Shown piece after piece: positions 1,025-21,700 of a stretch of DNA of 64,000 bases. The position numbers and the translations under genes are program-made. The stretch covers positions 1 to 64,000 of the forward strand of contig CAIPDV010000103.1 of the NCBI GenBank assembly GCA_903863935.1. The letters are read 5' to 3'. The stretch's first letter is position 1. Each line of letters opens with the position of its first letter. The notes below the pieces were generated by a model that saw only the letters and a list, made by a program, of their open reading frames with translations, had not been told where the DNA came from and made no database searches. The stretch comes from an uncultured Bacteroidota bacterium. GTDB taxonomy: Bacteria; Bacteroidota; Bacteroidia; JABEUT01.

Positions 1025-1888
1025 ATGAACCAAAAACCAGTTATTCCAAGCGTGAATTTTCATCTATGGGAACCCTGCAATTTCCGTTGCAAATTCTGCT
1101 TTGCATCCTTTCTGGATGTTAAAGAATCCATCCTCCCGAAAGGCCATTTGCCTAAAGAGGATACCCTAGAAGTCGTCCGGCAGTTATGCAGGTATGGGTT
1201 CAAAAAGATAACTTTTGTCGGTGGGGAGCCAACGCTTTGCCCCTGGCTTCCGGAACTGATTGCCGAAGCCAAGTCATTTAGGGTTAATACAATGATTGTA
1301 ACCAATGGAAGCAGGATAACTTCTGAATATCTACTTCCTTTAAAGGGAATTCTTGACTGGATTACCCTAAGTATTGATAGCACAAATCCGGAAATAAACC
1401 GGAAGTCCGGCAGGGGAAGAAACAGTACATTCTTTTCCAGTCAGGATTATCTTTTAAAATGTGGGATTATAAAAGATGCCGGATTCCGACTGAAAATAAA
1501 TACTGTAGTTCACCGCTTGAATTATAATGAAGTTCAATCTGGATTTATTTCACAAGCCAGGCCAGAACGGTGGAAAATATTCAAGGTTCTTCCCATATCC
1601 GGTCAGAATTCCACCGGAATATCCGGTTTGGATATAACCGATGAAGAATTCCTCCATTTTCTCGAAATAAATAAAGACTTGTCCCCGGGTGTAGATTTTG
1701 TTCCGGAAAACAATGATGCCATGACTGGCTCCTACCTGATGATTGACCCGGCAGGGAGGTTTTTCGACAATACCAAGGGGGAGCATAGTTATGGCCAGCC
1801 ATTACTAAAGGTAGGAATAAATGAAGCAATGAATCCAATCAATTTCAGCTATGAAAAATTCATTGAAAGAGGAGGGTTATATGAATAG
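1025..1888 (+). CDS. Prokaryotic viperin homologue (radical SAM ddhNTP-synthase family)
   Basis: This 287-residue radical SAM protein carries the 4Fe-4S motif C18-x3-C22-x2-C25, the SAM-binding GGEP at 66-69 and a TNGS motif at 93-96. What separates it from generic radical SAM enzymes is co-linear similarity to animal viperin (RSAD2): KINTVVHRLN near 158, RWKIFK at 182-187, ENNDAMTGSYLMIDPAGRFF at 229-248 and a C-terminal FIERGGLY. These correspond to FKINSVINRFN, RWKVFQ, ESNQKMKDSYLILDEYMRF and FLKRGGKY of viperin as I remember it. Family members convert CTP, GTP or UTP to chain-terminating 3'-deoxy-3',4'-didehydro nucleotides that block phage RNA synthesis. All motifs are present and the frame is intact. 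The last 8 bases overlap the kinase start at 1881. The substrate cannot be told from sequence. Confidence 0.88.
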   Translation: MNQKPVIPSVNFHLWEPCNFRCKFCFASFLDVKESILPKGHLPKEDTLEVVRQLCRYGFKKITFVGGEPTLCPWLPELIAEAKSFRVNTMIVTNGSRITSEYLLPLKGILDWITLSIDSTNPEINRKSGRGRNSTFFSSQDYLLKCGIIKDAGFRLKINTVVHRLNYNEVQSGFISQARPERWKIFKVLPISGQNSTGISGLDITDEEFLHFLEINKDLSPGVDFVPENNDAMTGSYLMIDPAGRFFDNTKGEHSYGQPLLKVGINEAMNPINFSYEKFIERGGLYE

Positions 1889-2054
1889 ACCGGATATAAA
1901 AATTATACTGAGCGGTACAGCAGGTAAGGGTAAAACTACCATTGGGAAACTTTTAAGCAAGTTAACCCGCGTAGAGTTTTTTTCTGTAGGCAAGCTAAGG
2001 GATTGGGAGCAAAGATTGAAAATACGCTTTAAATGGCCAGCATTTAATAAATAG
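1881..2054 (+). pseudogene. Truncated P-loop nucleotide kinase (CMP/adenylate-kinase-like), N-terminal 57 residues
   Basis: The ATG at 1881 overlaps the viperin stop by 8 bases and follows a purine-rich GAAAGAGGAGG at 1866-1876. The product begins with a beta strand and a Walker A loop, LSGTAGKGKTTIGKLL, then FFSVGKLR, the usual order in small archaeal-type CMP/AMP kinases (about 180-200 residues). It stops after 57 residues, so the NMP-binding and lid regions are missing. No other frame downstream continues the fold, so this is a deletion rather than a simple frameshift. Bacterial viperins often sit next to nucleotide kinases, and in vertebrates RSAD2 adjoins CMPK2, so this is probably the remnant of a kinase that supplied NTP to the viperin. 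Confidence 0.7.
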
Positions 2055-2134
2055 CATAGAAAATCTGGAACAAGTAAAAATAGCTAAAAACCTGTCACAT
2101 TTTTTACTAAATTTAGATTGCTATATCATTTTAC

Positions 2135-2142
2135 TATATTTG
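2135..2142 (+). promoter_or_regulatory. Bacteroidota -7 promoter element (TATATTTG)
   Basis: TATATTTG matches the Bacteroidota -7 consensus TAnnTTTG and lies 21 bp before the ATG of the STAS-like fragment at 2164. It shows that a separate transcription unit began here, after the truncated kinase. Confidence 0.5.
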
Positions 2143-2163
2143 CTCTCAACTGCGCAAAGCATA

Positions 2164-2328
2164 ATGAAGAATTCTATAAAAATATGGCCTGATTTAAATG
2201 ATATGACTCAGGCATTAATTTCATATTCAAATAAAACGCTGAATGTTGAGAATGAAATGCATATAGACATGTCAAATGTCCGCAAAGCAAATTCTTCTGG
2301 TGTCGTATTAACATTAGTATGGCTATAA
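2164..2328 (+). pseudogene. 5' fragment of a STAS-like domain gene
   Basis: The 54-codon reading frame starts at ATG 2164, just downstream of a clear -7 element. Its end, HIDMSNVRKANSSGVVLTLV, resembles the strand-helix of a STAS-like fold (hydrophobic strand, then SSG at the helix start). The frame then runs into TAA at 2326-2328, overlapping the methyltransferase frame. Both the promoter and the start are kept while the rest is gone, so this is a 5' gene remnant ending at a deletion junction near 2310-2320. The fold assignment is weak, and I do not know the full-length parent. Confidence 0.4.
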
Positions 2329-3478
2329 GGAAGGGTTTTCATCAGAACTTGTAGAAGACGCTATAGATTCTACAATCTTTAAGAAAGATGATTTTATTTT
2401 AGATCCATTCAATGGTAATGGGACAGTTACTCTTACTGCTTCTATAAAAAAAGTAAAAGCAGTAGGAATAGAAGTAAATCCCTTTGTTGCATTTATGTCA
2501 AGGGTAAAACTCCTAAATCTTAAAACAAAAAATATTGATAGAGATATCGATTTCCTTATAAACTCTTCAAATAAAGGAAGAACTTCAAACTTATTGAATT
2601 TTTCAACTTTTTCAGAGTTAACTGGAAAAAGTAAATGGTTATTTAATTCTCAAGTTTTAAACTCATTTGAAGGAGGCTGGTCAGCTACTAAGAAATTCCC
2701 AAAGAAAAAGAGGGAGTTATTTCAATTGGCTTTAATAGGTGCCGCTTTGGATAATTGTAATGCCTCAAAAGATGGAAAATGCCTAAAATACAGGCCGAAT
2801 TGGAAGGATAGAGAATTCGATAAAGATACTTTTATAAATTCCTTAGAAGATAGGTTATTAGTAATTAGTAAGGATTTAGAAGAGAATCCTATTCCAGAGA
2901 AGGCCATTATAATCAATAAAGATTCAAGAACTGCAATTAATAAGATTTCCCAAAAATTTAAGCTTTGTATTACATCCCCCCCTTATCTTAACTCATTTGA
3001 TTATACTGATATCTATCGACCAGAACTTTTTCTTGGAAAATTCATTAATGGGCATGAAGAATTAAGAGCACTAAGGCAAAAAACCGTTCGTTCCCACGTT
3101 GAGATTAAATTGCCAGAACCTTTATCAATTGAATACGGTGATGTTTTTAATAAAGTTTACGGAAATATTTTAGAATCTGAGAATTTGTGGGATAAACAAA
3201 TTCCGATAATGATTCAAAGTTATTTTGAGGATATGCAGAATGTTTTATCCAGTTTAAATGAAAAAGCAAAAAAGAACGGTCAATTATGGTTAGTCGTTGC
3301 AAATTCTGTATATGCTGGTATTGAAATACCTGTAGACCTTATTTTAGCAGAAATCGGAACTCGAAAAGGGTGGGAACTGAAACGAATTGAAGTATTAAGA
3401 AAGATACAAAGAAGAAAAACAAAGCATAATGGAAATATTAACTCCGTGCGTGAGAGCTTGATTGTATTTCAAAAATAA
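2318..3478 (+). pseudogene. 5'-truncated DNA methyltransferase (N4/N6 type, SPPY motif)
   Basis: The frame is open from codon 2318, directly after an in-frame TAG, to the stop at 3478. Motif I (LDPFNGNGT, near 2400-2427) binds SAM, and the catalytic motif IV is TSPPYLNSFDY near 2974-3006, typical of N4-cytosine or N6-adenine amino-methyltransferases. The order is motif I before motif IV. There is no plausible start before motif I. The first ATG (2495) would remove motif I, so any product from it should be inactive. Homology seems to start at YKEGFSSELVEDAI, so only a short N-terminal part is lost. No restriction endonuclease is adjacent. The gene has been joined to the STAS-like fragment upstream. 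Confidence 0.7.
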
Positions 3479-3561
3479 TTAGCTCAGGCTCTCTCAAAAT
3501 TTAAAGGCAGTGGTAGGTTTCATATTTATAACCTAAGGAAAAAGAAGCCCTTAATAAAATA

Positions 3562-3654
3562 ATTATTGCATATTGCGATATGCAATAATATTTTTCATAT
3601 ATTTGCAAACCAATGCAATAATTTAAATTATTGCATATCGCAATATGCAATAAT
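3562..3654. promoter_or_regulatory. Paired palindromic operators around the wHTH/AbiEii promoter
   Basis: Two 28-bp hyphenated palindromes share perfect 12-bp arms, ATTATTGCATAT and ATATGCAATAAT. They lie at 3562-3589 (centre TGCG) and 3627-3654 (centre CGCA), so the second is the exact reverse complement of the first. Between them is a Bacteroidota -7 element, TATATTTG, at 3598-3605, and a half-site CAATGCAATAAT at 3611-3622. The second palindrome ends 7 bp before the wHTH start codon. This is the expected layout for autoregulation of a toxin-antitoxin operon by the DNA-binding antitoxin; the binding itself is inference. Confidence 0.75.
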
Positions 3655-3661
3655 TATACAT

Positions 3662-4186
3662 ATGAGACCAATACAATATAATTTGAAGCCACAAGATGTA
3701 GTTATCCTGCTAAAAATCGTAGCCTATGGTTCTGAGCCCTGGCAGCAAAAGCCAATGGCAGAATCACTAAATATGAGTCAGTCAGAAATAAGCCATTCCT
3801 TAGCCCGTTTACACTACGCCGGATTGCTTGATGAAAGTGGTAAAAGAGTAATGCGGCTTGCATTGATGGATTTTTTACAGTTTGGTTTGAAGTATGTATT
3901 TCCTCAAAAACCCGGTTCCTTAGTCCGTGGTGTACTCACAGCCCATTCAGCCCCGCCACTAGATAAGCATATTGTAAGCAATGAAAACTATGTCTGGCTT
4001 TCTGCTACCGGCAATGCAAAAGGATATAGCATAGTTCCGCTTTACCCCTCGGTTGTGGAAGCCATAAGGAATGATGAAAAGCTCTATCAACTCTTAGCCC
4101 TTGCTGATGCCTTGCGTGTAGGAAGAGCCAGAGAAAGAGAATTAGCAGTAAAGGAACTGAAACAACGGATATTGAATGAAAAATAA
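3662..4186 (+). CDS. Winged-helix antitoxin-like regulator of the AbiEii-type pair
   Basis: The predicted 174-residue protein has an N-terminal helix-turn-helix (residues ~10-65; MAESLNMSQSEISHSLARLHYAGLL), which resembles MarR-like or winged helices. The rest has no known motif and ends in a charged helix. I chose ATG 3662 because an upstream start would lie within the operators and the -7 element at 3598-3605. The gene overlaps the nucleotidyltransferase by 11 bases. Such wHTH plus AbiEii-like nucleotidyltransferase pairs are frequent in Bacteroidota and resemble type IV-like toxin-antitoxin systems in architecture. The paired palindromes upstream suggest autoregulation. Confidence 0.75.
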   Translation: MRPIQYNLKPQDVVILLKIVAYGSEPWQQKPMAESLNMSQSEISHSLARLHYAGLLDESGKRVMRLALMDFLQFGLKYVFPQKPGSLVRGVLTAHSAPPLDKHIVSNENYVWLSATGNAKGYSIVPLYPSVVEAIRNDEKLYQLLALADALRVGRARERELAVKELKQRILNEK

Positions 4187-4859
4187 AAATATAGATAAAG
4201 AGGTTGTTGCAATGATTGCAGCCGCATTGCAGGAGCTTAAGCCTCAAATGATATTTGTGGGCGGAGCAACCCTTAGTTTGTATATTAATGATGTAGTGGC
4301 CGATGAAATTCGCAATACAAATGACATTGATTTGACCATTCAATTAACCGGTTATGCGGAATGGGCTAAAATGCAGGAACGGTTATCACAACTTGGGTTT
4401 TACCCAAACCCGGAAGGACATGCCATTTGCAGTTATATCTATCAAGGTATATTGGCAGATATAATGCCTTCCGAAGACGGACACATGGGAAAGGCAAATA
4501 CTTGGTATAAACCGGGGTTTGATTACTTGCAAATGGTAATGGCTGAAAATATAGAAGTAAAAATCTTATCGGCTCCCTATTTTCTTGCCACTAAATTTGA
4601 AGCATTCCATAGTAGGGGAGGAGATTACCGCACTAGCCATGATTTTGAGGATATAATTTTTGTCTTGGATAACAGAACCACCATTGTAGAGGAAATTCTT
4701 GCTGCGGACAGCAAAGTGAAACCGTTTCTTAAAACTGAATTACTGAAAGTGCTTTCAAATTCGAATTCAGAGGAAATAATCAGTTGTCATATTCATCCAT
4801 CAGTTGTAAAACAAAGGTACCAGCTTGTATTAGAAAAAATCAATAAAATTATATCCTGA
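4176..4859 (+). CDS. AbiEii-like nucleotidyltransferase (putative toxin)
   Basis: The 227-residue protein has the nucleotidyltransferase signature: VGGATLSLY near residue 28, followed by RNTNDIDLTI near residue 48 with the two metal-binding aspartates. AKFEAFHSRG-type sequence (ATKFEAFHSRGGDYRTSHDFEDI) occurs in the middle, as in many DUF6036/AbiEii proteins. Relatives transfer nucleotides to tRNA or other targets and act as toxins held in check by a partner HTH protein. It overlaps that partner by 11 bases, so the two are translationally coupled. The frame and motifs are intact, so the module may be functional, unlike its neighbours. The actual substrate and toxicity are unknown. Confidence 0.8.
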   Translation: MKNKNIDKEVVAMIAAALQELKPQMIFVGGATLSLYINDVVADEIRNTNDIDLTIQLTGYAEWAKMQERLSQLGFYPNPEGHAICSYIYQGILADIMPSEDGHMGKANTWYKPGFDYLQMVMAENIEVKILSAPYFLATKFEAFHSRGGDYRTSHDFEDIIFVLDNRTTIVEEILAADSKVKPFLKTELLKVLSNSNSEEIISCHIHPSVVKQRYQLVLEKINKIIS

Positions 4860-5001
4860 AAGATGGAGTAATGGTCAATTTGATTACGTGGGTTACAAGT
4901 AGGGTACTTGGAAATGGAGCCAACTATTTCCATTTTGGAAACGGTTCATTAGAGGTAATACAAGTTCTATTTATTTTGTATCCTAATCAAAACTAACTAA
5001 C

Positions 5002-5334
5002 ATGGACGAGTACAAAACAAAAGAAGAAGGGTATTTAATAATACCCAGAGCATGGCTTCATGAAATTTTGGAGAAGCAGGACAAAATAATTTCCTTATTA
5101 GAAAATAGGTACGGGTTGGATGAGCCCGGTATTATCGGCGATTACATGACCGAAGAGGAAGCCAAAAGAAGATTGGGTAGAAAAACAACATGGTTCTGGA
5201 ACCTGAGAACTTCCGGAGAATTGGGTTATGCCAAAGTAGGTAAAAAAATATTCTACCTTCAAGATGACATAAAAAAACTTATCGAAAAGAATACGAAAGC
5301 GAGTACACCTCAATATCGTGGAATTCACCGGTGA
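5002..5334 (+). CDS. Excisionase-like helix-turn-helix protein
   Basis: This 110-residue protein has a putative coiled N-terminal part (LHEILEKQDKIISLL) and a C-terminal MerR/excisionase-like HTH, from about residue 48 to 95 (YMTEEEAKRRLGRKTTWFWNLRTSG, then a wing with YAKVGKKIFYLQDDIKKLI). Proteins like this are common in Bacteroidota conjugative and mobilisable elements, where they regulate excision or transfer genes. The gene stands alone, 143 bp after the nucleotidyltransferase. Its likely partner genes (integrase, mobilisation genes) are missing here, which fits a decayed element. Confidence 0.65.
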   Translation: MDEYKTKEEGYLIIPRAWLHEILEKQDKIISLLENRYGLDEPGIIGDYMTEEEAKRRLGRKTTWFWNLRTSGELGYAKVGKKIFYLQDDIKKLIEKNTKASTPQYRGIHR

Positions 5335-5439
5335 GTTTCTTTAGCCACAAGATTTATAAATACTTTAAACTAGATTTAAGTTTTATCGGTAGAAGGGGCG
5401 AGAAATGTCCCCTTTTACTGATAAGAAGACAAAGTTTAT

Positions 5440-5498
5440 TATACCCGAAAGGGTATAAAAAGGCATTTGAATCCGTGATTTATACCCGAATGGGTATA
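5440..5498. promoter_or_regulatory. Two orphan operator-like palindromes (TATACCC-N4-GGGTATA)
   Basis: Two 18-bp palindromes with identical arms lie at 5440-5457 (centre GAAA) and 5481-5498 (centre GAAT), 41 bp apart centre to centre, or about four helical turns. Spacing and symmetry suggest binding by a dimeric repressor, for example an XRE/HipB-like regulator. No regulator gene follows: the next ~100 bp hold no real ORF, and the serine recombinase remnant comes from the other strand. The site therefore looks like the leftover promoter region of a deleted operon. Confidence 0.5.
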
Positions 5499-5600
5499 AG
5501 AAAGCTAGGTCAGGGTCACAATTAAAAATATTTATATTGTGGATGAACTAAATGAATTGGCAACTACCGAGTTTTTCTAGGTAGTTAAAAAGGATGAATA

Positions 5601-6702
5601 TTAAATTTTGATAATACCCTTCAAAACGTATAAATCCCGTAAATCATCGTAAATTTGGTTGGATATTTGGTCATTAGGGCTCACCTTATGGGACTGGCGT
5701 TGAAATTTCAATGCCAGTCCTTTTCTATTAGTCCCATTATCCTCGATTTTGCGGCAAATTGTTTCAATAACACCATTTATTTTTTTGGTTCGAAATGCGT
5801 TATTTTCAAAAACGAGCTTTTCAGGAAATATCACACTTATTATTTGCTGCTTTTCCTCTGTATCTGCCTTTTCATAGCCTTTGTGAAGGCTTTTCAGCAT
5901 GACAAAATCATAATCAAGATACTTCTTGTAATCTGCATCCATAAGCGAAATTTGCAGCTTTTGCCTTTCCAACCTTTCAAGGGCAGGCTCATACTCTTGC
6001 TTTATTCCCCTATATTCCTGAGCATCAATTTCCCCATCAAGTCTTAGTTTCATTGCATTATTCAGCCTTTCTTTATTCTTACCAATATCGTCATGTATTT
6101 TCCGGAGTGCATTTACCTTAAATTGACTGTTTGACCGGAACATATCATCCATAATTTCATAGTAGGTATCAATTACACTTTCATTAGCTGAAATGGTAGC
6201 TAATGCATTAATAAAGCGTCCATTTACAATATCAGCTTTTGCTCTTTCCTTACAGCCTTTCATGCAGTGATAATAATAATACAGCCCTCCATTACCTTTG
6301 GAGGCACTTCCTGTTAATGTTCCTCCACATTGCGGGCATTCAAGGAATCCTCTTAGAGGTAGTTCATTTTTCCTTGTGTTTTTTAAGCGGAGTTTTCTTT
6401 TCCTTCCATTAAGAATATCCTGAACTTCATAAAACAAAGATTCAGTGATGATAGGTTCGTGTTTTCCAATCACATGAATATCATCCTCGTCCTTATATGC
6501 AGGGATAAATATCTTTCCACAGTAAACAGAATTTCTTAGCAGGGTATAAAAGTTATTCTTACTACAAACAAGTCCTTTCTCCAAACATATTTTTCTGATG
6601 TCTTCGGCAGGGGAAACCGCTTTTTCCAGTTCTTCAAATGCCCACTTGATTATAGGTGCATCTTTACTTGGAATAATTATTGGGCGATTGTTTTCATCCC
6701 GT
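5601..6702 (-). pseudogene. C-terminal part of a large serine recombinase
   Basis: The open frame runs from about 6702 to the stop at 5601 (~366 codons). It shows the end of the Recombinase domain (IIKWAFEELEKAVSPAEDI, then LRNSVYCGKIFIP), a zinc-ribbon (ECPQCGG, then HCMKGCKERA) and a coiled-coil tail. The whole N-terminal resolvase domain with its catalytic serine is missing, so the product cannot recombine DNA. The translated part starts abruptly at RDENNRPIII, where the frame of a surface-protein gene ends. The two broken genes meet at about 6702. Large serine recombinases mobilise integrative elements and are often found at the edges of defence islands. Confidence 0.85.
5691..5720. repeat. 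30-bp near-perfect palindrome in the recombinase 3' end
   Basis: The arms GGACTGGCGTTGAAA and TTTCAATGCCAGTCC pair over all 15 positions if one G-T pair is allowed. It lies inside the last 40 codons of the recombinase frame, where it encodes GLALKFQRQ. It could be a strong hairpin or a protein-binding or recombination site; I see no evidence that decides between these. Confidence 0.55.
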
Positions 6703-7729
6703 AGGAGTAAACATTATAGTTTGCTCCTGCCGAACTTGAAGCTGAAAGTGCATAATGTAATCTTACGTTTTTATATCCTGTTGTTGGCATGTATAAATAC
6801 ATATATGCGTTCGTGGAAGGATTTCTTGAACGGATACCTATATTTCCTGCTTGTGTACCAACTGAATCATTACCTAAAGCTGTTTGTATGGCTGGTATTC
6901 CAGCTACTGAACTATTAAGGTCATTTATATAAGCATAATTTGGCAATTCTGCTAAATTATCTAGGATACCTTTTCCGGATGGTTGACTATAAAGGATGTG
7001 TCCTTTAGTTGATATGGCCGAATAATCAGTATAAAGTGGATATGTGGTTATAGCATTATCCTGGCTGAAAGTGTGCGAATAACTGTAGGCTGCACCAAGA
7101 CTATCTTTTCCGCCACCTGACGTTGGTAAGGTGCTGTTAAAATCCCAATAATGAATTACCTGGAATGTAGCTGCTCCGCTAACACTTACTGTTAAAGCAG
7201 GAATCTGGGTAATGCTTACTGTAGCGGTAGCCGTACAGCCACCATTATCAGAAACTACGACTGTATTGGTTCCGGCAGAAAGATTAGTTCCAGTTGAACT
7301 CAAACTTGATGAACCTCCATTCCATGTATACGTATATGGAGTGTTAACACTTCCGGTAACATTAGCTGTTGCAGTTCCGCCTTGGCCTGCGCAATCAGCA
7401 CCCGTTTGACCGGAAAATGTAATGCTTAAGCCATTATTTAATATGGTAACACTGCCTGTTTCAGAACAACCTGAATTATCTGCCACGGAGCAGGTATAGG
7501 TTCCTGCACTTAAATTTGTAACTGATGCAGTTGTTGCACCACTTTGCCAATGGTAAGTTAAAGGTGCAATTCCACCGGAAGCAGTAATTGTACCGGTTCC
7601 GAAACCTGTTCCACCACATACAATATTTGTTGAAGATATAGTAGCAATAACGTTGGTATATGTAACGGCAGAAGAGGCAGTGAATCCATTCGCATCAGTT
7701 ATTGTAACGGTTAAGGGTCTGAATTTTAT
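6702..7729 (-). pseudogene. Internal fragment of a SprB/Ig-repeat surface protein
   Basis: The frame is open from 7729 (just after an in-frame TAA) to a stop at 6677, about 340 codons of adhesin sequence. It has no credible start codon and no secretion signal. It contains repeat units such as TYHWQSGATTASVTNLSAGTYTCSVADNSGC and a later one ending in NTVVVSDNGGC, then a lectin-like stretch (VIHYWDFNSTLPTSG onward). Both ends are broken: at 6702 by the recombinase remnant, at ~7725 by the upstream region of the next gene. It is related to the intact SprB-repeat genes that follow and is probably a leftover of another member of that group. Confidence 0.75.
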
Positions 7730-7902
7730 TTACATTGACCAAATAGTGTCAAGTAAAGGTGATTACTAGTAAGTTAATAATACAAAGTTAGTTAAGGTAT
7801 AGTAGCACAATAAATAGTAGTTTACCTCGTTCTTATTAACTGAATTTTATTTGAAAGATAGAATTCCATTCAAAAAAACGCCTATTTCATCGATCTAAAC
7901 CC

Positions 7903-7910
7903 TATATTTG
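7903..7910 (+). promoter_or_regulatory. Bacteroidota -7 promoter element (TATATTTG)
   Basis: TATATTTG matches TAnnTTTG and lies 27 bp before the chosen ATG at 7938 of the surface-protein gene. It rules out the upstream in-frame TTG at 7908, which lies within this element. Confidence 0.6.
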
Positions 7911-7937
7911 CACTCTTCTAAAATAACCCTCATTAGC

Positions 7938-10385
7938 ATGAAAATAAGTACCCGTTCGTTAAAATTATTTCAAAAAGCTGCCGCATTCTTTTCATGTATG
8001 TTATTTGGTATTGGCAGTATGAATGCTCAGGTTCAGCTTGATGCGCATAGTTTAGGTAATGGTTTATCTACTTGGAACCTTACCACAACCAAACCGAATG
8101 AATTAATAATAATTTCAGTTGGAGGATATGGAACCGGTGGAACAGAAATGGGTATTTCTCCTGGTCAGGTAACTGTAAATGGATTTAATGCAACCTACCT
8201 AACTAAGGGGGAGTGGCTAAATTTTAATTTTACGTGGACTGCCCAAATATGGGCGTATGTTGCAGTCGCTCCCGGAGCTTATTCTATTACCTGCGCTGAA
8301 ATAGGATTAAATAGCCCGTTTTATTTTAACTATGCGGCATCTGTCTACCAAAATAATTGCCCGTTGAGTTTAGCAAATATCATTATTGGCGGGCACGATA
8401 GTAACCAAACCGTTACTACAATAACTGCATCTATTACTACTACAGTGGCCGGGTCTTATGTTTACGGTACTACAAATATTAATGATAACGGTGGAACAGG
8501 CACAGTTGCATGGACTTCGCTAACACAATTAGATTGGAACTATATTAATAATGGAATTGATGGAGCACAAGCCGGAGCTACCTTACCTATAGGTACTTAC
8601 CCTATAACAATTACAGATATTGGGGCTTCTAACGTTTGGATGACTGAAGCACTTATTGCCGTTCAGCCAAATCCAAATTGTTGTACCCTGGCCGTGGCCC
8701 CTATTGATTCTATTAATGTTTTATGCAATGGTGGAAGTAATGGTGTTGCCAGGGCTAATGCAAGTGGCGGACATGGTATTTACACATACTCTTGGACTCC
8801 CGGTGGGCAAACTACTGATATCATTACCGGGTTGTCTGCGGGTACGTATACCATTGTTGTTACTGATTCAGCATGCAGCACTACTGCTAATGTTATTATT
8901 ACGCAACCTGCATTGCCATTAACATCTAGTGTTACCTCCACAAATGTAACTTGTACTACCACTGGAAGTGCAACAGCTACAGCAGCAGGAGGAACCGTTC
9001 CTTATACGTATGCGTGGAGTCCGGGTGGGCAAACCACGGCGGCTATTACAGGAATAAGCGCAGGAACCTATACTGTGAATATCACCGATGCGAATGGTTG
9101 CTTGTCTTCATCCACGGCAACAATCACACAATCCACACCTCTTAATGTTTCTGTTGTAGGGCCGCAAATGTTATGTAATGGATCTTTCGGAAGTTTTACA
9201 GCTACAGTTACCGGTGGAACAACCCCGTATACCTATACTTGGAGTAGTGGTGCTACAACCAATCCGGCCTCATTGCCGTATTCTACTACCCAAACCTATT
9301 CAGTTACTGTAAAGGATGCTAATGGATGTACCGGAACTGCATCAGTTACCATTATTTCCGGCCCTGCATTAAATGTTACTATTACCGGCGGAGCCTCGAT
9401 GTGTAGCGGTATGTCTACCAGATTATGTGCGACAACAACAGGTGGAACCGGAAGTAAAACGTATTTATGGCAACCCGGAAATTTAACAACTCCATGTATT
9501 ACTGTTACACCTGGTTCAACAACAACCTATACTGTTTCGGTTCTTGATAATTGCTTAACGAAAGCTGTTGAAAATAAAACAGTTCAGGTAAATCCATTGC
9601 CAATTATCAATTTCTGGGCAGATGTAACACAAGGTTGTGCACCTCTTTGTATTCAATTCCGTAATACTACCCTTATCCCTGGCGGTTCTGCTCAAAATAT
9701 CTGGACATTCGGAAATGGAGATACTATACAATCACTTAACCCTGTTTATTGCTACCCTGCCAGCGGAAATTATAATGTTTCACTTACAGTAGTTTCAGAT
9801 AGCGGATGCAGCGCAACACTCTCTAAAATTAATACTATAACTGTGTTTAATCATCCGAATGCGGCATTCACACTTACACCGCCTTCAACAAGTATCCTCT
9901 CTCCAACAATACAATTTACAGATAAAACTTCGGATAGTTACGGAATCTCATACTGGAATTGGAGCTTTGGGGACGGTTCTAATTCAACGAGTGAATCCCA
10001 AAACCCATCACATACTTATCAGGACACCGGAACTTATTGTGCTAAGCTTGTTGTTATGGATGCAAATGGGTGTACGGATACTGCTACTAATTGTCTTGTA
10101 ATTGACCCTGCCTATAACTTGTATATCCCTTCAGCATTTACTCCAAATTCGGATGGAGCTAATGATGTGTTTATTCCAAAAGGCAATTATATCAAGAATT
10201 TTGAAATGTACATTTTCGATCGTTGGGGTATGAAAATATATTACACCAATAATATTTTGAAAGGATGGGATGGATCAGTTAAAGGAGTAACTGCACAGGA
10301 AGACACCTACGTATATAAAATTCAGGTGACGGATTCAAAGAATACTCCACATTCATACATTGGTAGCGTTAACTTGCTAAAATAA
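7938..10385 (+). CDS. SprB/PKD-repeat surface protein with T9SS type B (gliding-associated) C-terminal domain
   Basis: The 815-residue protein starts with a signal peptide (KLFQKAAAFFSCMLFGIG, cleaved near MNA/Q). A ~210-residue N-terminal domain beginning QVQLDAHS is shared with the gene at 10713-13562. Next come two SprB-like repeats (VLCNGGSNGVA and VTCTTTGSAT units), two Ig-like domains, two PKD domains (IWTFGNGD and NWSFGDGS motifs) and the terminal sorting domain (IPSAFTPNSDGANDVF, then MYIFDRWGMKIY). Such proteins cross the inner membrane by Sec, pass the outer membrane by T9SS and are held at the cell surface. Adhesion or gliding is the likely role. ATG 7938 was chosen from the promoter position. 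The gene faces 10713-13562 across two terminators. Confidence 0.88.
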   Translation: MKISTRSLKLFQKAAAFFSCMLFGIGSMNAQVQLDAHSLGNGLSTWNLTTTKPNELIIISVGGYGTGGTEMGISPGQVTVNGFNATYLTKGEWLNFNFTWTAQIWAYVAVAPGAYSITCAEIGLNSPFYFNYAASVYQNNCPLSLANIIIGGHDSNQTVTTITASITTTVAGSYVYGTTNINDNGGTGTVAWTSLTQLDWNYINNGIDGAQAGATLPIGTYPITITDIGASNVWMTEALIAVQPNPNCCTLAVAPIDSINVLCNGGSNGVARANASGGHGIYTYSWTPGGQTTDIITGLSAGTYTIVVTDSACSTTANVIITQPALPLTSSVTSTNVTCTTTGSATATAAGGTVPYTYAWSPGGQTTAAITGISAGTYTVNITDANGCLSSSTATITQSTPLNVSVVGPQMLCNGSFGSFTATVTGGTTPYTYTWSSGATTNPASLPYSTTQTYSVTVKDANGCTGTASVTIISGPALNVTITGGASMCSGMSTRLCATTTGGTGSKTYLWQPGNLTTPCITVTPGSTTTYTVSVLDNCLTKAVENKTVQVNPLPIINFWADVTQGCAPLCIQFRNTTLIPGGSAQNIWTFGNGDTIQSLNPVYCYPASGNYNVSLTVVSDSGCSATLSKINTITVFNHPNAAFTLTPPSTSILSPTIQFTDKTSDSYGISYWNWSFGDGSNSTSESQNPSHTYQDTGTYCAKLVVMDANGCTDTATNCLVIDPAYNLYIPSAFTPNSDGANDVFIPKGNYIKNFEMYIFDRWGMKIYYTNNILKGWDGSVKGVTAQEDTYVYKIQVTDSKNTPHSYIGSVNLLK

Positions 10386-10407
10386 AGAAGGAAATTATAA
10401 TTATACC

Positions 10408-10435
10408 AGCCTCGCCTATAAGCGGGGCTTTTTTT
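10408..10435 (+). terminator. Rho-independent terminator of the 7938-10385 gene
   Basis: An 8-bp stem, AGCCTCGC with AGCGGGGCT (one G-U pair), encloses the loop CTATAA and is followed by seven T residues. It begins 23 bp after the stop codon. Confidence 0.8.
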
Positions 10436-10444
10436 GTATGTAGT

Positions 10445-10504
10445 TTATTCACGGAACCAGGCAAGTAGATAATTTTAAGCATCCGGGGTTGAACCCGTGA
10501 ATAA
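10445..10504. repeat. 10-bp inverted repeat with 40-bp loop
   Basis: TTATTCACGG at 10445-10454 and CCGTGAATAA at 10495-10504 are perfect inverted copies in the convergent intergenic region. No gene is visible between 10386 and 10712. Its role is unknown; it may be a stray repeat or an RNA structure. Confidence 0.4.
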
Positions 10505-10650
10505 TTTAGGGTAATGACTTCCTGTAAGTGATAAAAGCAGGATTCAATATAAAGATATTGATTGTAATTGACGAAGAAATGGCTTGAAGCAAAAGGAATT
10601 GATCAGCCTGTATGAAATCAATTAACGGAGTTCTCTAATTGTAAACTCTA

Positions 10651-10691
10651 GCAATAAAAAAGGAGGATAAAAAATCCTCCTTTTTTATTGC
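10651..10691. terminator. Bidirectional terminator between convergent surface-protein genes
   Basis: A perfect 17-bp stem, GCAATAAAAAAGGAGGA with its reverse complement, encloses a TAAAAAA loop. The stem's A and T runs make it a strong terminator in both directions. It lies 21 bp past the stop of the minus-strand gene at 10713. Confidence 0.85.
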
Positions 10692-10712
10692 AGCTGTTAA
10701 TTAGTATATAGG

Positions 10713-13562
10713 TTATCTGGTTTTTACCATTTTCAGTTGGTCAACCAACGTTCCATCATTCGTCAAAATGCGGATTAAATATATCCCATTAGGTTGACTG
10801 GCTATGTTCATTTGCATAGATTCGTCGGTTACTTTAACCGTGTTTATATTCCTGCCAAGGTAATCATACATTTCCAAGACCATTCCTCTTTCAATTCCCT
10901 TAATTGTAAATATTCCGTTGTTAGGGTCTGGGAAAATGGTAATGTCTGTTGAATTACCGAAAAGATTATCTATGCCAACGGTAGAACGAATAATAATGCA
11001 AGTGGTTTGTGAACAACCATTGTTGTCGGTCACAATGCAGCAATAGTCTCCTGTACATTGATTATTGATGGTGTCTGTAGTTTGGCCTCCCGCAATCCAT
11101 TTATAGGTATATGGTGGTGCTCCACCGCTTAAAACAGTAACTGATGCTTGTCCATTGCATCCTCCTGAACCGTGCACATCTATTGAGTCTGTTTTAATAT
11201 TCATACCTGCTGGTTCCGAAATTGTAACTTCAGCTGTAGCCGTGCAACCTGAACTATCGGTAACAGTAATAATATAGGTTCCACCAGAAAGGCCAGATTC
11301 AACTGAATTCTTTCCACCGCTGGGGAACCAGTAGTAGGTATAAGCCGGAGTTCCGCCTGATGCTGTACATGATACAGTTGCATCGTGCCCACCATAGCAA
11401 TTTAAATTACCTGTAACAGTTGCACTAACACTTAAATGAGATGGGTAGCTAATTGTTTCGGAAGCGGTTCCACTGCATCCATTGCTATCAGTTGCGGTAA
11501 TGGTATAAGTGCCGGCGGTTAAGTTAGTTGTTGTGGCAAGGTTTGTTCCTCCGCTTGGAGTCCATAGATAGGTGTAAGGCGGAGTGCCACCGGTAGCTGC
11601 ATGTGCGGTAATATATCCGAAGCCATCACAAAGTAAAGTTGTTTTTGAGGCTATGGTTATTGAAACAGATGAAGATGATTGAGATATAATAACAGAAGCT
11701 GTTCCTGAGCATCCATTATTATCGGTAGCTGTAATTGTATAAGTGCCTGCACTCAGATTGGATGCCATAAGATTAGTTCCTCCGCTTGGGGACCAAAGGT
11801 AGGTATAGGGAGATGTTCCTCCGCTCGCAGGATTTGCGGTGGCACTGCCCAAAGTATTGCAACTTACATTAGTTTGCGAGGCAATGGAAACAGAAACAGG
11901 GGATGTGGTTTGTGAAATGGTAACGGATACTGATCCGGTACAGCCATTATTATCTGTGGCAGTAATTGTATAAGTGCCTGCACTCAAATTAGAGGCTGTA
12001 AGATTGGTTCCGCCACTTGGTGACCATAAATAAGTGTAAGGTGCAACACCACCACTCGCAGGATTTGCTGTTGCGCTTCCTAAAGTACTACAAGTTACAT
12101 CTGAATGAGAGGCTATGGTAATTGCAACTGAAGAAGCTGCCTGAGTTATTGTAACGGAGGCCGTACCAGAACATCCATTGTTATCTCTAGCAGTAATTGT
12201 ATATGTTCCGGCACTTAGATTAGAAGCAGTCAGGTTGGTTCCTCCACTCGGTGCCCAGGAGTATGTGTAAGGCGATGAGCCTCCTGTTGCCGGGTTAGCA
12301 GTTGCACTGCCCAAGGAGGTACAGGTAACATTGGTTTGTGACGCAATAGTTACAGAAACAGGTGATGGAGCCTGGGTTATAGTTACCGAGGCACTGCCAA
12401 TGCAGCCATGGTTATCGGTAGCAGTTATTGTGTAGGTACCTGCACTCAGGTTAGAAGCTGTAAGGTTTGTTCCACCGCTAGGTGACCAGGAATAGGTATA
12501 AGGTGAAGTTCCTCCGGAAGCAGGGTTTGCCGTTGCACTTCCAAGCACACTGCAAACTACGGGGGTCTGCGAAGCAATCGATATTGTAACTGGAGTTGGT
12601 TGTGTTATAGTTACCGATGCGGTGCCAGTGCAGCCTTGAAAATCTGTAACTGTAACGGTATAGTTACCTGCAGTTAATCCGGTGCCGGTAGCATTTGTTC
12701 CACCTGCCGGAGACCATAAATAAGTATATGGTGCCACGCCACCGCTGGCAGTAACCGTCGCTGATCCATTATTGCCACCATTACATAAATCATCTGTAGG
12801 AGTACCCATTGAAGCAGTTAAAGTACACGTTGCAGAAGGCTGCACAACAATAAGGGTAATTACTGCATAAGGATTAGAAGCACCCGGGTCAGTAACGTTA
12901 ATTGTATATGGTGCCGCAACGGCTTCTGTCAATCCGGCATGAGAGCCGTCAATACCATTACTGATATAATCGTGGTCTAATTCAGTTAATCCACCATTCC
13001 AGCTTACAACACCGGTACCGCCATTGTCATTGATAATTACATAACCATAAATATAAGAGTTGGCAACTGTAGTAGTGATAGAGGCTGAAATATTGGTTAA
13101 TGCTGCATTATCATTAATGGTACTTGCGGTAATATTTGCCAAGGTTAAGGTAGCAGCAGGTTCATAAACACAGGCAGCATAATTAAAATAGAACGGGCTC
13201 ACCTGACCCACTTCGGAACAAACTAAGGTATATGTACCAACTGTTGGGGCAACATAAGCCCAAATTGAAGTGGTAAATGAAAATCCATTTGTATATACGG
13301 CCTCATTAATATAGGTTGCATTATTCCCATTTACAGTAACTGTTCCGGCAGCTGTACTGAGGGTACCATAACCGCCTGCAGAAATTAAAATAAGTTCATT
13401 TGGTTGAGTTGTTGTAATATTCCAGGTTGAAGCACCGGCAGCATCGCTATGTGCATCCAGCAATACCTGAGCATTGACTGATATGCCTGTTAAAAAGAGA
13501 ATAGCCAAGGTAAAAATAGATGATCTGAGTAGGAAATTTAATTGAATAATTTTACTTTTCAT
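10713..13562 (-). CDS. SprB-repeat surface protein with T9SS type A sorting domain
   Basis: The 949-residue protein has a signal peptide (LLRSSIFTLAILFLTGISVNA) and a ~210-residue N-domain starting QVLLDAHSDAAG, paralogous to that of the gene at 7938. It is followed by eight SprB-like repeats of about 75-80 residues. Several repeats are nearly identical, for example SPYTYLWSPSGGTNL followed by ASNLSAGTYTITATDNNGC, which suggests recent internal duplication. The C-terminus (ITIFPDPNNGIFTIKG, then GRNINTV and a final QLKMVKTR) is a type A (Por-secretion) domain, unlike the type B domain of its partner. It should be secreted by T9SS and attached through the removed C-terminal domain, possibly as an adhesin. 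The repeat copy number is likely to vary. Confidence 0.88.
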   Translation of the reverse strand: MKSKIIQLNFLLRSSIFTLAILFLTGISVNAQVLLDAHSDAAGASTWNITTTQPNELILISAGGYGTLSTAAGTVTVNGNNATYINEAVYTNGFSFTTSIWAYVAPTVGTYTLVCSEVGQVSPFYFNYAACVYEPAATLTLANITASTINDNAALTNISASITTTVANSYIYGYVIINDNGGTGVVSWNGGLTELDHDYISNGIDGSHAGLTEAVAAPYTINVTDPGASNPYAVITLIVVQPSATCTLTASMGTPTDDLCNGGNNGSATVTASGGVAPYTYLWSPAGGTNATGTGLTAGNYTVTVTDFQGCTGTASVTITQPTPVTISIASQTPVVCSVLGSATANPASGGTSPYTYSWSPSGGTNLTASNLSAGTYTITATDNHGCIGSASVTITQAPSPVSVTIASQTNVTCTSLGSATANPATGGSSPYTYSWAPSGGTNLTASNLSAGTYTITARDNNGCSGTASVTITQAASSVAITIASHSDVTCSTLGSATANPASGGVAPYTYLWSPSGGTNLTASNLSAGTYTITATDNNGCTGSVSVTISQTTSPVSVSIASQTNVSCNTLGSATANPASGGTSPYTYLWSPSGGTNLMASNLSAGTYTITATDNNGCSGTASVIISQSSSSVSITIASKTTLLCDGFGYITAHAATGGTPPYTYLWTPSGGTNLATTTNLTAGTYTITATDSNGCSGTASETISYPSHLSVSATVTGNLNCYGGHDATVSCTASGGTPAYTYYWFPSGGKNSVESGLSGGTYIITVTDSSGCTATAEVTISEPAGMNIKTDSIDVHGSGGCNGQASVTVLSGGAPPYTYKWIAGGQTTDTINNQCTGDYCCIVTDNNGCSQTTCIIIRSTVGIDNLFGNSTDITIFPDPNNGIFTIKGIERGMVLEMYDYLGRNINTVKVTDESMQMNIASQPNGIYLIRILTNDGTLVDQLKMVKTR

Positions 13563-15019: not shown

Positions 15020-18000
15020 GTGTATCATTTACGGAAATATTCATTTACAGCTATTTTAATTTTTTGCTTTTGCCAAATCGGTATATCACAATTTTATACC
15101 GGATCTCAAATGCCTTTTGGCAAGAACAGAGTGCAATATCAAAAATTCAAATGGAGTTTTTATTCGTACCCGAATTACAAAGTTTATTTTTATCCCGGAG
15201 GCGATCAGATAGCCCGGTATGTTGGTGATAAAGCATCGGGATTCATCAGGCAACTATGCTCTTTCATGGATTATCAAACAGATAAACCTATTGATTTTAT
15301 CGTGTTCTGCAAACAATCGGAATTTGCCCAAAGTAATCTTGGCTTGCCGGAAGAGCAGCAATATAATACCGGTGGATCAAATCATATTGTCGGAAGGAAA
15401 GTAGTCGTTTATTTTGATGGTGATCACAACAAGTTAGATGAACAAATTCGTTTGGGGATTGCAGAGGTAGTATTCCAGGAAATGATGTATGGTGGCAGTT
15501 TTACAAATGTAGTAAAGAGTTCTACGTTGTATAATATTCCTCCGTGGTTTGAACAAGGCTTTGTTCATTATCTTGCCACCGGCTGGAATCCCGAGGTAGA
15601 TGGATATGTGAGAGATGGTATTGAATCGGGCAGGTATAAACGATTTAATCATTTAACCGGCCAGGATGCAACTTATGCCGGTATCTCAATCTGGAATTAT
15701 ATTGCACAGAGTTATGGAGAATCGGTTATTCCTCAACTGCTATATATAGCACGTTCCAGCAGAAGCATTGAAAGCGCATTCCTTTATTCATTGGGTACCT
15801 CACTTAAAATGTTTTCGAAGGATTGGATAAGCTATTACGAAACCCAATACAAGAAAGAAACTCCGAAAGACGCACTTCCTAAAAAGCAGCCAATATTTTT
15901 AAAGCCTAAAGCAAATACTAAATATTACAGGTTTGAAGCAAGTCCGGAAGGAAGGTACATGGCATATGCCACTAATGAGCTTGGACAATGTAGGGTTTGG
16001 ATGTACGATAATCTGACAAAGAAAAGTAAATGTGTGATAAAGCAAGGTGTTAAAGTTGACCGCGTTTACGATTACTCCTATCCTTTGATTGCCTGGCATC
16101 CCAGCGGCGAAATATTTTCCGTAATTATGGAAGAAGATGGGATGGAAATGCTATATACGTACACACTTTCTACAAAAAAACTTGAAAAGAGAATGATTGC
16201 AAATTTCCAGAAGATACTGGACTTTTCATATTCCGATGATGGAACAAAGTTTGCCATGTCAGCTATTCGCGAAGGCCAATCAGACATTTACATTTTCACT
16301 GCCGGGTCAAATGCATATGAACAAATAACGCATGATGTATATGATGATATGTCGCCCAGGTTTATAGATCATTCAAATAAAATAATTTTCAGTTCAAACA
16401 GACCGGATGACTCATTAAGGAACGGCGGAAGCTTTAATAAAATACAAGGGCATTATGATGTTTTTGAGTATAATCTTAAAACAAGGTCGAAAACTTTGAC
16501 ACGGATTACGAATACGCCAAGTATTGATGAAACGAACCCTATACCTTATTGCCCCGGATATGTAAGTTACATAAGTAATGCGGCAGGCGTATTAAATAGA
16601 AATATTGCCCGTATCGATAGCTCTATCAGTTTTGTTGATACTTCGGCACATTACAGGTATACAGTAAAGTCATTCACAATCACAGATTACAGCCATAGTA
16701 TACTTGAGCAAGATGCTTCCCCTTCCATGCGTTATATGACGGAAATATTTTACAGCAAAGGAAAATATTTTCTTTATAAAGACACATTACCCGAAAAACT
16801 TACAACGAATGTTTCGCTAAGCCCTCAGCCAACCTCATTCATGAGGCAGTACCTTGCTGTAGAAAGAAGAAGAAATTATGAAGATTCTGTGGCGCACGCG
16901 GGAAGCAGAAGAGATACAAATTCAATTATTATCAGATATCCTTCCGAACCTGAAAAGAAGGAAGTGCCTAAAACAGACACAGCTAAAAAATCTAAGTCCG
17001 ATGCCGCCCATAAAGACCAATATCATTTAAAAGTCAATATCAATTCTTACTCATTTGATGAACCTCAAACAACCGAAAAACCTGTTGTTAAAACTGTGCC
17101 ACCGCCTCCTCCGGTTCAAACTACAATTACATATCCGGTTGTGAGAAATTTTGAAGCTCCGAAAGATTCCGTGGTTAAGAAACATTCCTTGATCAAAGAA
17201 AATTACTACGTGAGTTTCAAGCCTACATTTATCAATACCCAGATTAATAATACATATATGACAACTTCATACCAGCCATACCTTGCAAATGCAACGGCTA
17301 GTATGCTGGCACCTAATCTGGGGTTCAATATTTCTTTAAATGGTCTTGAAGATCTTTTTGAAGACTACCGTATTTCAGGCGGGCTGAGAATGGACTTTGG
17401 TTTAAGCAACAACAATTATTACCTTACGTATGAAGACCTTTCCAAAAGGTTGGATAAGGAACTGATTCTGCAACGTTCAGCTTTCCTGGCAGTCGCAAGC
17501 GGAAATAATCTGGCTGACGAATACACACTCGACGCTACGTATAAACTAAAATGGCCTTTTAGTGAAGTAACACGAATTGAGGGAAGTATAGGATTGCTTA
17601 ATGAAAAAAATATTACACTGGCCCAGGATATACCCACATTGGAAACTCCGCCAGCAGCGTCCTATTTACCACACGCTGAATTAAACTTTGTTTATGATAA
17701 CACAAGGCCTGCAGGACTTAATATTTATTACGGATTAAGGGCTCGGGGATTTCTACAATATTATAACGACCTAGGGCAGAACAAAGGGAGTATGTATGTT
17801 TTAGGAATGGATATTCGCTATTACAAAAAAATTCATCGTGAACTTATCTGGGCTAACAGGCTTTCAGCAGGTACTTCGTTTGGCCAGGAACATTTACTCA
17901 ATTATTTGGGTGGTGTTGATGGCTGGTATAATCCCACGTTTAATGCAATAACAGGAATTACACCGGGCCAGAATTATATATTCCAATCATTGGCTGCTCC

Positions 18001-18403
18001 TATGCGTGGCTTCGATCAGAATATCAGGAATGGAACCAATTTTGTTTTATTTAACAGTGAAATACGGTTCCCAATTATCCGTTATCTGCTTAATCGTCCC
18101 ATTAAATCAGATTTCCTGAATAACCTTCAATTGGTAACATTTGGAGATGTTGGAACAGCTTGGACGGGAGCAACACCATATTCTACAATAAACTCTATTA
18201 ATACTACCGTAGTTGGTGCACCGGGTAATCCTATTACGGTTATTATATCTACACAGCAATATCCTTTTGTGGAAGGTTTCGGAGAAGGGATCCGAACCCG
18301 GATATTAGGATATTTCCTGAGGCTTGATGAAGCCTGGGGAATTAATAATGGCATTGTAATAAGCCAACCCATAACCTACTTCTCTTTCAGTCTCGATTTT
18401 TAA
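15020..18403 (+). CDS. Pseudo-peptidase MA / TolB-like propeller / outer-membrane barrel protein
   Basis: The 1127-residue protein starts at a GTG and has a signal peptide (FTAILIFCFCQIGIS). Residues ~45-280 resemble the gluzincin-like MA-family peptidase domain, but the expected HExxH is QEMMY (153-157). The usual second motif appears as PPWFEQGFVHY (174-184), so the domain looks catalytically dead. Residues ~290-560 form TolB/WD40-like blades (YRFEASPEGRYMAYAT; FSYSDDGTKFAMSAI; IFSSNRPDD). The middle is proline- and lysine-rich. The last ~380 residues look like an outer-membrane beta barrel (alternating aromatic strands, ending in YFSFSLDF). Proteins of this kind occur across Bacteroidota with unknown roles. 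It probably acts at the outer membrane, binding rather than cleaving. Confidence 0.78.
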   Translation: MYHLRKYSFTAILIFCFCQIGISQFYTGSQMPFGKNRVQYQKFKWSFYSYPNYKVYFYPGGDQIARYVGDKASGFIRQLCSFMDYQTDKPIDFIVFCKQSEFAQSNLGLPEEQQYNTGGSNHIVGRKVVVYFDGDHNKLDEQIRLGIAEVVFQEMMYGGSFTNVVKSSTLYNIPPWFEQGFVHYLATGWNPEVDGYVRDGIESGRYKRFNHLTGQDATYAGISIWNYIAQSYGESVIPQLLYIARSSRSIESAFLYSLGTSLKMFSKDWISYYETQYKKETPKDALPKKQPIFLKPKANTKYYRFEASPEGRYMAYATNELGQCRVWMYDNLTKKSKCVIKQGVKVDRVYDYSYPLIAWHPSGEIFSVIMEEDGMEMLYTYTLSTKKLEKRMIANFQKILDFSYSDDGTKFAMSAIREGQSDIYIFTAGSNAYEQITHDVYDDMSPRFIDHSNKIIFSSNRPDDSLRNGGSFNKIQGHYDVFEYNLKTRSKTLTRITNTPSIDETNPIPYCPGYVSYISNAAGVLNRNIARIDSSISFVDTSAHYRYTVKSFTITDYSHSILEQDASPSMRYMTEIFYSKGKYFLYKDTLPEKLTTNVSLSPQPTSFMRQYLAVERRRNYEDSVAHAGSRRDTNSIIIRYPSEPEKKEVPKTDTAKKSKSDAAHKDQYHLKVNINSYSFDEPQTTEKPVVKTVPPPPPVQTTITYPVVRNFEAPKDSVVKKHSLIKENYYVSFKPTFINTQINNTYMTTSYQPYLANATASMLAPNLGFNISLNGLEDLFEDYRISGGLRMDFGLSNNNYYLTYEDLSKRLDKELILQRSAFLAVASGNNLADEYTLDATYKLKWPFSEVTRIEGSIGLLNEKNITLAQDIPTLETPPAASYLPHAELNFVYDNTRPAGLNIYYGLRARGFLQYYNDLGQNKGSMYVLGMDIRYYKKIHRELIWANRLSAGTSFGQEHLLNYLGGVDGWYNPTFNAITGITPGQNYIFQSLAAPMRGFDQNIRNGTNFVLFNSEIRFPIIRYLLNRPIKSDFLNNLQLVTFGDVGTAWTGATPYSTINSINTTVVGAPGNPITVIISTQQYPFVEGFGEGIRTRILGYFLRLDEAWGINNGIVISQPITYFSFSLDF

Positions 18404-18760: not shown

Positions 18761-21700
18761 ATGATTACGAAATGGGGCACCCCACTTGTTCTGGTCGCGA
18801 TATCAGTATTGATATCCGCTCAGAATGTTTGTTCACAAGACAAGCAGGGACAGACGAAAAACTTTACACAAGCAATTCAAAAGAAATCAGAAACGAAGAA
18901 CAATCTAAATCCTTCCTCACCAAAGAATGAAGCATATTTACAAGTTCCCGCACAGGGGACCGCCGACATTGAGGTTAGCGAAAAACTGGTTTCCCAATGG
19001 AATAATATTCTGAATGAAACCAGGCAAGAAGCAAATGCAACAGATAAAGATTTTAACCTGTTCATCCGCTTCAACCAAAACTATGTTGATTCAGAAAGAT
19101 GCGCTCTTTTCCAATTAGTAAAGTCGGGGAAAATAAATGAAAGTAATATAACCCCTTACATAAGCGCAAAAAAGCAAAAACTACAGACGCTTTATTCTCG
19201 ATTCCTTGAAATAAAAAAGGAATTCCCAACATCGGTGGCACAAAATGCAGTAAATGCACCAATAACCCTCGATACTTGTTTCCCTAGCTGCACTAATATA
19301 GATTTCAGTTCCGGTAATTTTACCGGATGGAGCGGGTTTTACGCAGTAAATAATTCAGTAACCAATTATAACATCACCAATATCACAGGTGGACTTCTCG
19401 GGCCGGTTGTGAAAGGTGCTCTCGACCCATTTACCGGGAACACATATCAGGTTCATATTACATCTAAAGCGAATGTAGATTGGTTCCTTAAAACATTTCA
19501 CGGTATTAATATGTCTCAGGCTTCCCCATGGGGTGGCAACTTCTCTGCAATGATTGGTGACAGCATTAATAATGGAGCCGGCGTTGCAATGTTAAGTCAG
19601 AAGTTTTTTGTTTCTCCCGGCACTACGAATTTTACCTATCAGTATGCAGTTTTTCTTGAAAACCCTAACCACCCTGTGTTTGAACAGCCATTTTTCAAAG
19701 TTGCATTGCTTGACCAGAATGGTGATACAATTCCGGAATGTGGACAATACGTAGTTGTTTCTAAGGCTACCATACCTGGTTTTAAAGGAGAATATTATCC
19801 TGCCAGAAATGATACAATTTATTGGAAAGACTGGACACAGGTAAATGTACCACTTTCAAGATATGTTGGTCAATGTATAACAATTGTTTTTGAAGTTGCA
19901 GATTGTGAACCAACAGGTCACTGTGGTTACGCTTATGTAGATGCATCTTGCTCTCCGCTTGCTATATCATTAGCTTCACCTATGTTATGCGGACAAAATA
20001 CTGGAGTGCTTGTTGGTCCTGCAGGAGCTTCACAATACTATTGGACTGGCCCAAATGGCGGTATAGTTGGAAATGATACACTTCAAAATGTAACAATAGA
20101 TAGTACAGGAACCTATACATTGGTAATTACTCCTGTAACAGGGGCGCAATGCAAGGACACATTAACCATTAAAGTGATAAAAGATCCGGGTGTAAAATTA
20201 ACTTCGACTTCAGTTAATATATCATGTAATGGAGGAAACAATGGAAGTATCACAGCCACTGCAACAGGTGGTTCAGGAGCATATACATATTCATGGTCTC
20301 CTTCAGGAAGAACAAATGCAACTGCAACCGGATTAACTGCGGGAAAATATATTGTAATGGTTACCGATTCATTCGGATGTGCAATTCGTGATACAATAAC
20401 ATTAACCCAACCTGCACTATTAACTGCCGCTGCTGCAACTTCAAAAAATGTTGGTTGTAACGGAGGCAATACTGGAAGTGCAACAGCCACAGCTGCGGGT
20501 GGAACAGCACCGTATACTTATAAATGGAGTCCTTCAGGGCAAACTACAGCCACTGCAACAGGATTATCTGCCGGAACATATACTGTAACAATTACCGATG
20601 CGAACGGCTGCACTGCAACAGCAAAAACTACAATAACCCAGCCTCCTGTTTTAACTGCTATAGCAAGTGGTGGAAATTTGAGCTGCTATGGTGATAGTAC
20701 AGGATATATTATTGTGGTTGCTGGTGGTGGAACCGGACCGTATAAATATTTATGGGCTCCATGTGGTTGCACAGAAGATACAGTATATGGATCTAAAGCT
20801 GGGGTATATTCGGTAGTAGTTACGGATGCAAACGGATGCACAGCAACAGCTGCTGTAACCATTACTCAACCGACAGCATTGACAACAATAACTGCAATTA
20901 CCAATGTAACCTGCAATAGTGCTAATAATGGAACGGCTAATATCAGTGTTTCGGGAGGAACGGCTGCATACAAATATGTATGGATGCCTTCCGCACAAAC
21001 CAATGCAACAGCTACCGGACTTAGCGCAGGAAATTACACTGTTACAGTTACCGATGCTCATGGATGTTTAGCTACGGCAGTATGTACAATTACACAACCA
21101 ACTGCCCTAACTACTGTAGCAATAACTAGTGCAAATGTTAGTTGTAATGGTGCAAATAATGGTAGTGCAAATGTTGCGGTTGCGGGTGGAACAGCTCCTT
21201 ATACTTACTTGTGGAACCCTTCCGGACAAACAACTTCAACTGCTACCGGCCTCAGCCCTGCAACGTATACTGTCACAGTTACCGATGCGCATGGTTGTAT
21301 TGCAACTGCAACTACCATAATCACCCAACCCCCAGTATTAACAAGTATAATAGTACCAATCAATTTAACTTGCTATGGTGATTCTAGCGGAAGCGTAACA
21401 GTTAATGCAACAGGTGGAACAGGCCCGTATACATACGTATGGCTTCCTTGCTCATGTCCGCATCAAACAATTAATGGATTAAGTGTAGGAACATATACTT
21501 CTATTGTAACAGATGCAAACGGTTGCACAGTATCAGCGACTGTGACTTTAACTCAACCAATATTATTAATTGCTACAGCTACGACGCTAAATAATATAAG
21601 TTGCAATAATGCAAATAATGGAAATGCTAATGTTATTGCATCCGGCGGAACAGGCGCATATACATATTTGTGGACACCATCCGGACAAACAAATGCAACT

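Follow-up and report, generated by a model that had tools for sequence, protein, structure and literature searches.

The closest described counterparts of the proteins analyzed here are SprB of Flavobacterium johnsoniae and other SprB-repeat (PF13573) adhesins of the type IX secretion system (T9SS), which combine a signal peptide, SprB repeats and a C-terminal T9SS sorting domain (CTD). In many surface repeat proteins of the T9SS, the N-terminal region has no assigned fold or role. As to sorting, type A CTDs use PorV and the proteins bearing them are anchored covalently to LPS; type B substrates require PorP/SprF-like shuttles and are associated at the surface with proteins of this kind (PMC12618676, PMC9143113). 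For the latter, a directly downstream PorP/SprF-like gene is usual but not universal, and "orphan" substrates of type B have been described (PMC12618676). Two further points of comparison come from phages: the minor tail module of actinophages (PHROG 2106/553), as seen in Tweety gp21; and the tail modules of about 160–200 residues from the mycobacteriophage Douge (BppU-CBM and CFP NTD/CTD), which bind host glycans (PMC13033339).

Within a window of 64,000 nucleotides, i.e., the whole stretch of DNA that we analyzed, from an uncultured Bacteroidota bacterium, two convergent genes encode proteins, A and B, which likewise feature a signal peptide, SprB repeats and a T9SS CTD. Protein A further resembles SprB in the type B nature of its CTD. 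Both differ from SprB in being far shorter and in bearing a predicted twin beta-sandwich region, hereafter the head; protein B additionally differs in its type A CTD, and protein A in having no adjoining porP/sprF-like gene.

Layout and export of the convergent pair

A preliminary description had placed two convergent open reading frames with a common N-terminal core at 7938–10385 (+) and from 13562 to 10713, and both were found there with the following features:

7903–7910 (+): TATATTTG, a Bacteroidetes-type -7-like element 28 nt upstream of the ATG (consensus match only)
7938–10385 (+): protein A, 815 aa; signal peptide, predicted twin beta-sandwich head, SprB repeats, PKD domains, type B CTD
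8028–8351 (+): head of A, unit 1 (QVQLDAHS...SVYQ)
8352–8672 (+): head of A, unit 2 (PLSLANI...IAVQP)
8676–9392 (+): SprB repeats of A, three Pfam stretches, the best at 8715–8807; outer limits by reading the sequence
9897–10088 (+): PKD domain of A, the best of two stretches (Pfam)
10125–10361 (+): type B T9SS sorting domain of A (CHU_C, TIGR04131; Pfam, NCBIfam)
10408–10429 (+): stem-loop resembling an intrinsic terminator, 3' of A
10713–13562 (-): protein B, 949 aa; signal peptide, predicted twin beta-sandwich head, SprB repeats, type A CTD
10743–10937 (-): type A T9SS sorting domain of B (Por_Secre_tail, TIGR04183; Pfam, NCBIfam)
10983–12815 (-): SprB repeats of B, eight Pfam stretches; outer limits by reading the sequence
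12819–13469 (-): head of B, both units, 56% identical to the head of A

For protein A, the ATG at 7938 is the likelier start, as the alternative TTG at 7908 overlaps the TAnnTTTG -7-like element. The N-terminal domains of A and B align at 52% identity over 251 residues inclusive of the signal peptide (BLASTP, E 4e-78), and at 56% over the mature domain of about 215 residues. Since the remainder of the two proteins, i.e., their stalks, is only 35% identical, the head is the best conserved part common to both. The SprB repeats that had been reported to follow it are recovered by PF13573 in both A (E 1.5e-18; 66.6 bits against a gathering score of 28) and B (E 1e-46; 156.7 bits against 28); in A, the Pfam matches add PKD domains preceding the CTD to the layout as first described. 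The differing sorting signals are likewise borne out, both lying above curated cut-offs: protein A ends in CHU_C/TIGR04131 (E 4.4e-15; 55.6 bits against 35) and protein B in Por_Secre_tail/TIGR04183 (E 2e-13; 50.1 bits against 23).

Genes for SprA, PorV and PorU are present in the same genome, as are nine for PorP/SprF-like proteins, the latter nine all on other contigs; no PorP/SprF-like gene was found beside the gene for protein A or elsewhere on the window's contig, and hence protein A would be an orphan substrate. Judging by its type, the CTD would decide export and anchoring, with protein A predicted to depend on a PorP/SprF-like shuttle, and protein B on PorV and probably also PorU.

Elsewhere in the window, a 1892-residue protein (18761–24439, +) combines 15 SprB stretches with PKD domains and ends in a type B CTD; for it, too, no PorP/SprF-like gene was found on the contig. 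A 1127-residue protein (15020–18403, +) combines WD40-like PD40 repeats in its middle with what is by eye an outer-membrane-like C-terminal part. On the minus strand, a serine recombinase fragment without the catalytic N-terminus (5601 to about 6700) adjoins, out of frame, an SprB-type adhesin fragment (6677 to about 7725); the junction in this region (5601–7725) is chimeric, a product of either recombination or assembly. An inversion between the convergent genes was considered and set aside, the inverted repeats being homologous coding parts of 70–80% identity and not recombination sites.

A duplicated head, its family and its stalks

When the family alignment is split after residue 110, the two halves align collinearly (hhalign, E 8.7e-7, probability 91%). 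Further, an AlphaFold2 model of the head, built on five sequences (mean pLDDT 66.8, pTM 0.65), shows an all-beta fold whose strands fall into two like series, at residues 13–106 and 113–214. By alignment and model together, the head is an internal duplication: a tandem of two predicted beta-sandwich units of about 105 residues each, not one domain. Thus, the earlier proposal of one new domain of about 210 residues stands with respect to there being a common domain but gives way to two repeated units, and the "TINVTD-type end" then pointed out is the final part of the second of these. The domain is indeed without a Pfam family (no match above the gathering score or at a meaningful E-value), and NCBIfam also has none for it. 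A search of the PDB by sequence found no full-length match, and one by fold, made with a model of only moderate confidence, yielded no full-length or convincing match either; weak double beta-sandwich or bicupin-like similarities to HutD/PA5104 and BacB (TM ≤ 0.44) were set aside.

Approximately 26 copies of the head occur in seven of the 11 genomes of the genus, with six in the genome analyzed here; the four genus genomes lacking it are 57–86% complete. Among 395 genomes of the class and 395 of the phylum, no full-length copy was detected outside the genus. Weak class-wide matches to stretches of CHU_C-tailed proteins (G123, G153 and G182; L060–L062) and to a stretch of an Ig/PKD-like repeat protein (G337; L082) were judged compositional and left uncounted. 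In most family proteins the head is N-terminal; it is internal in L035 and G004, and C-terminal-most in G000 C45, G002 C39/C78 and G003. The L035 protein (1417–8508) spans 2364+ residues and combines its internal head with repeated LamG-like stretches, recognized by eye, and many near-identical SprB repeats. At L049:3320–7115, L050:25–4380, L080 and L081, the head occupies the extreme C-terminus of secreted-looking proteins, a third context; T9SS models matched neither of two such proteins, one each in L049 and L050. The family CTDs are of type B in eight copies (seven by NCBIfam and G007_C33a by sequence only) and of type A in four, with the remaining copies either running off contigs or having no recognized sorting signal.

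Two pairs of adjacent family genes, G002 C28a/b and G007 C33a/b, have heads that are 45% and 52% identical, respectively. Beginning near codon 400 and extending through the stop, the DNA of their stalks is 100% identical (1.7 and 2.3 kb). This figure may be inflated, as short-read MAG assembly can turn near-identity into identity. The C33a tail contains a run of N. MAG assembly would not, however, produce the differing heads. Between the two species the stalks are about 50% identical, and the C28b head is sister to that of C33a (99/99) and the C28a head near that of C33b (87/93). Taken together, the stalk identity within genomes and the kinship of heads across species imply that the stalks are homogenized within a genome whereas the heads stay distinct. 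The tandem arrangement of diverged heads over DNA-identical stalks and CTDs in two species (L043:3195–8820 and L042:1760–9397) suggests either concerted evolution or head exchange.

On balance, we favor a reading of A and B as surface adhesin-like fibers, wherein a tandem head, probably a distant homologue of the phage tail module, is mounted on a stalk, the CTD sets export, and the head is the exchangeable specificity unit. At the N-terminal far end of the SprB/PKD stalk, the head would lie exposed, and the genus would keep several different heads per genome and reuse the stalks and sorting tags beneath them. In what is the least certain step, the head might bind a ligand, for which a glycan, at the surface or extracellular, is the likeliest choice given its position, its diversity and the analogy with the glycan-binding modules of a mycobacteriophage tail. 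An alternative that we regard as unlikely gives the head no ligand of its own: it would cap the stalk structurally or serve it as a folding or spacer unit, as Ig-like repeats do, and be conserved for stability. Such a role would suit the most invariant residues (Gly, hydrophobic or strand Thr), the many Ig-like stalk domains with no known ligand and the internal head of L035; yet it sits poorly with heads that diverge within a genome over identical adjacent stalks, where a generic cap would lead one to expect the reverse, and with the conservation of the polar residues E25 and N101 and of a GxD motif in unit 2. Shared by stalks that are exported with two different sorting tags, the head makes a good candidate for a binding device that can be exchanged.

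A probable relationship to a phage minor tail module

A Foldseek comparison of the head model with the viral models of BFVD returned 46 full-length matches (E ≤ 1e-3, probability ~1), the best with a TM of 0.72 and E of 5e-8; many are named minor tail protein and come from actinophages, and the sequence identity is about 15%. The Tweety gp21 module (residues 105–296; model pLDDT 86.8) illustrates the likeness: it agrees with the head in two-unit layout, strand order, length, fold and start motif (V-x-[LF]-D-A, here VAFDA), and its VTYDGSAMTLI corresponds to VTVNGFNATYL in the window head. The differences, besides the low identity, are that the head resides in a bacterial T9SS protein and that the PHROG HMMs directly match neither of the window heads, for which reason we do not file it under the PHROG families. 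The single match from a tblastn search of the head against phages (E 2) was judged to be due to chance.

Bacterial relatives lie between the two. A profile built from six phage domains matches long secreted proteins in other Bacteroidia, and one further such protein (G697, at L153) was reached from the window-family side. The domains of L153, L161 and L163 all match phrog_2106, and those of L153 and L163 also phrog_553, over most of the domain length (E 3e-14 to 4e-8); a Pfam scan of the three gave no meaningful match. As in A and B, the module is part of a secreted repeat protein with a Sec signal peptide: in L153 the tandem module is followed by VCBS-like repeats, and in L163 it is internal, with SprB-like repeats and then a type B-like CTD after it. 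These modules are nearer to that of the phages than to the window family, which is a separate, genus-restricted branch.

In hhalign, the window family reaches only 36% against the phage-only profile, but 94.7% (E 5.7e-8, 135 columns) against a superfamily profile of phage and bacterial domains; the controls attain at most 0.6% (50 column shuffles), 21% (50 block shuffles), 0.2% (reversed profile) and, for SprB, 45% over 44 columns. With the superfamily HMM, 16 of 24 family members, including the head of B (W_B), score above all 364 decoys, but the head of A (W_A) does not; when the search is reversed, the scores of SprB repeats are on par with those of most phage domains. The phage-only value, the low identity, the rank of W_A and the SprB windows mixed among the scores could be taken to mean that the resemblance is a convergence of fold among beta-rich, Thr/Gly/Ser-rich proteins and that the domain is a genus-specific invention. 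We consider this rather improbable, since the layout and start motif are common to both sides, the Foldseek matches span both units, and the inclusion of bacterial intermediates raises the hhalign value to a level that no shuffle approaches.

Common descent of the head and the phage minor tail module is thus likely in our estimation. Contrary to its being wholly new, as first thought, the head probably represents a divergent version of the tandem module found in phage minor tail proteins and secreted bacterial proteins; profile comparison would place it, distantly, with the PHROG 2106/553 module and these other bacterial versions. The Douge modules offer a functional analogy only: a Tweety-type profile had no sequence match among PDB chains.

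Sorting routes and the diversity of heads

In the domain tree, the CTD changed between types A and B at least twice. Protein A and type B copies of G007 form one group (support 100/100); protein B lies with the type A copy G000 C2 in the same 99/98 clade, outside the A + G007 group, and hence the split is older than the window pair. That the pair is a plain inverted duplication whose CTDs differ by one recent, functionally meaningless swap is accordingly very improbable and already disfavored by the tree, despite the convergent neighbors with their 56% identical heads: B and G000 C2 fall outside the supported clade, the G007 copies grouped with A are type B where their ends are visible, and the stalks of A and B are just 35% identical.

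The original suggestion of two surface routes for one head holds to the extent that the contrast between A and B is real and arose at least twice; as an argument it is weaker than it looks, because SprB-type stalks are found with either CTD and some copies have no recognized T9SS signal. The associated claim was that the module is of use on its own; independent movement of the module is supported by its N-terminal, internal and C-terminal positions, the repeated CTD-type changes and the differing heads over homogenized stalks. These findings support a portable module. More tentatively, it is possible that the genus maintains diversity in a repertoire of heads, ultimately from the same stock as the phage tail modules, and that gene conversion meanwhile homogenizes the stalks and tags, thereby placing new specificities on either T9SS route.

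What is new here is the internal duplication, the fold match to phage minor tail proteins, the genus family and the occurrence of different heads on the same stalks. One of the N-terminal regions typical of T9SS surface repeat proteins now has a predicted fold and a link to phage tail modules, albeit on the modest scale of one genus. The family also offers natural pairs for comparing type A and type B sorting of the same head. Finally, the pattern of different heads on identical stalks suggests that diversifying use is concentrated in the head.
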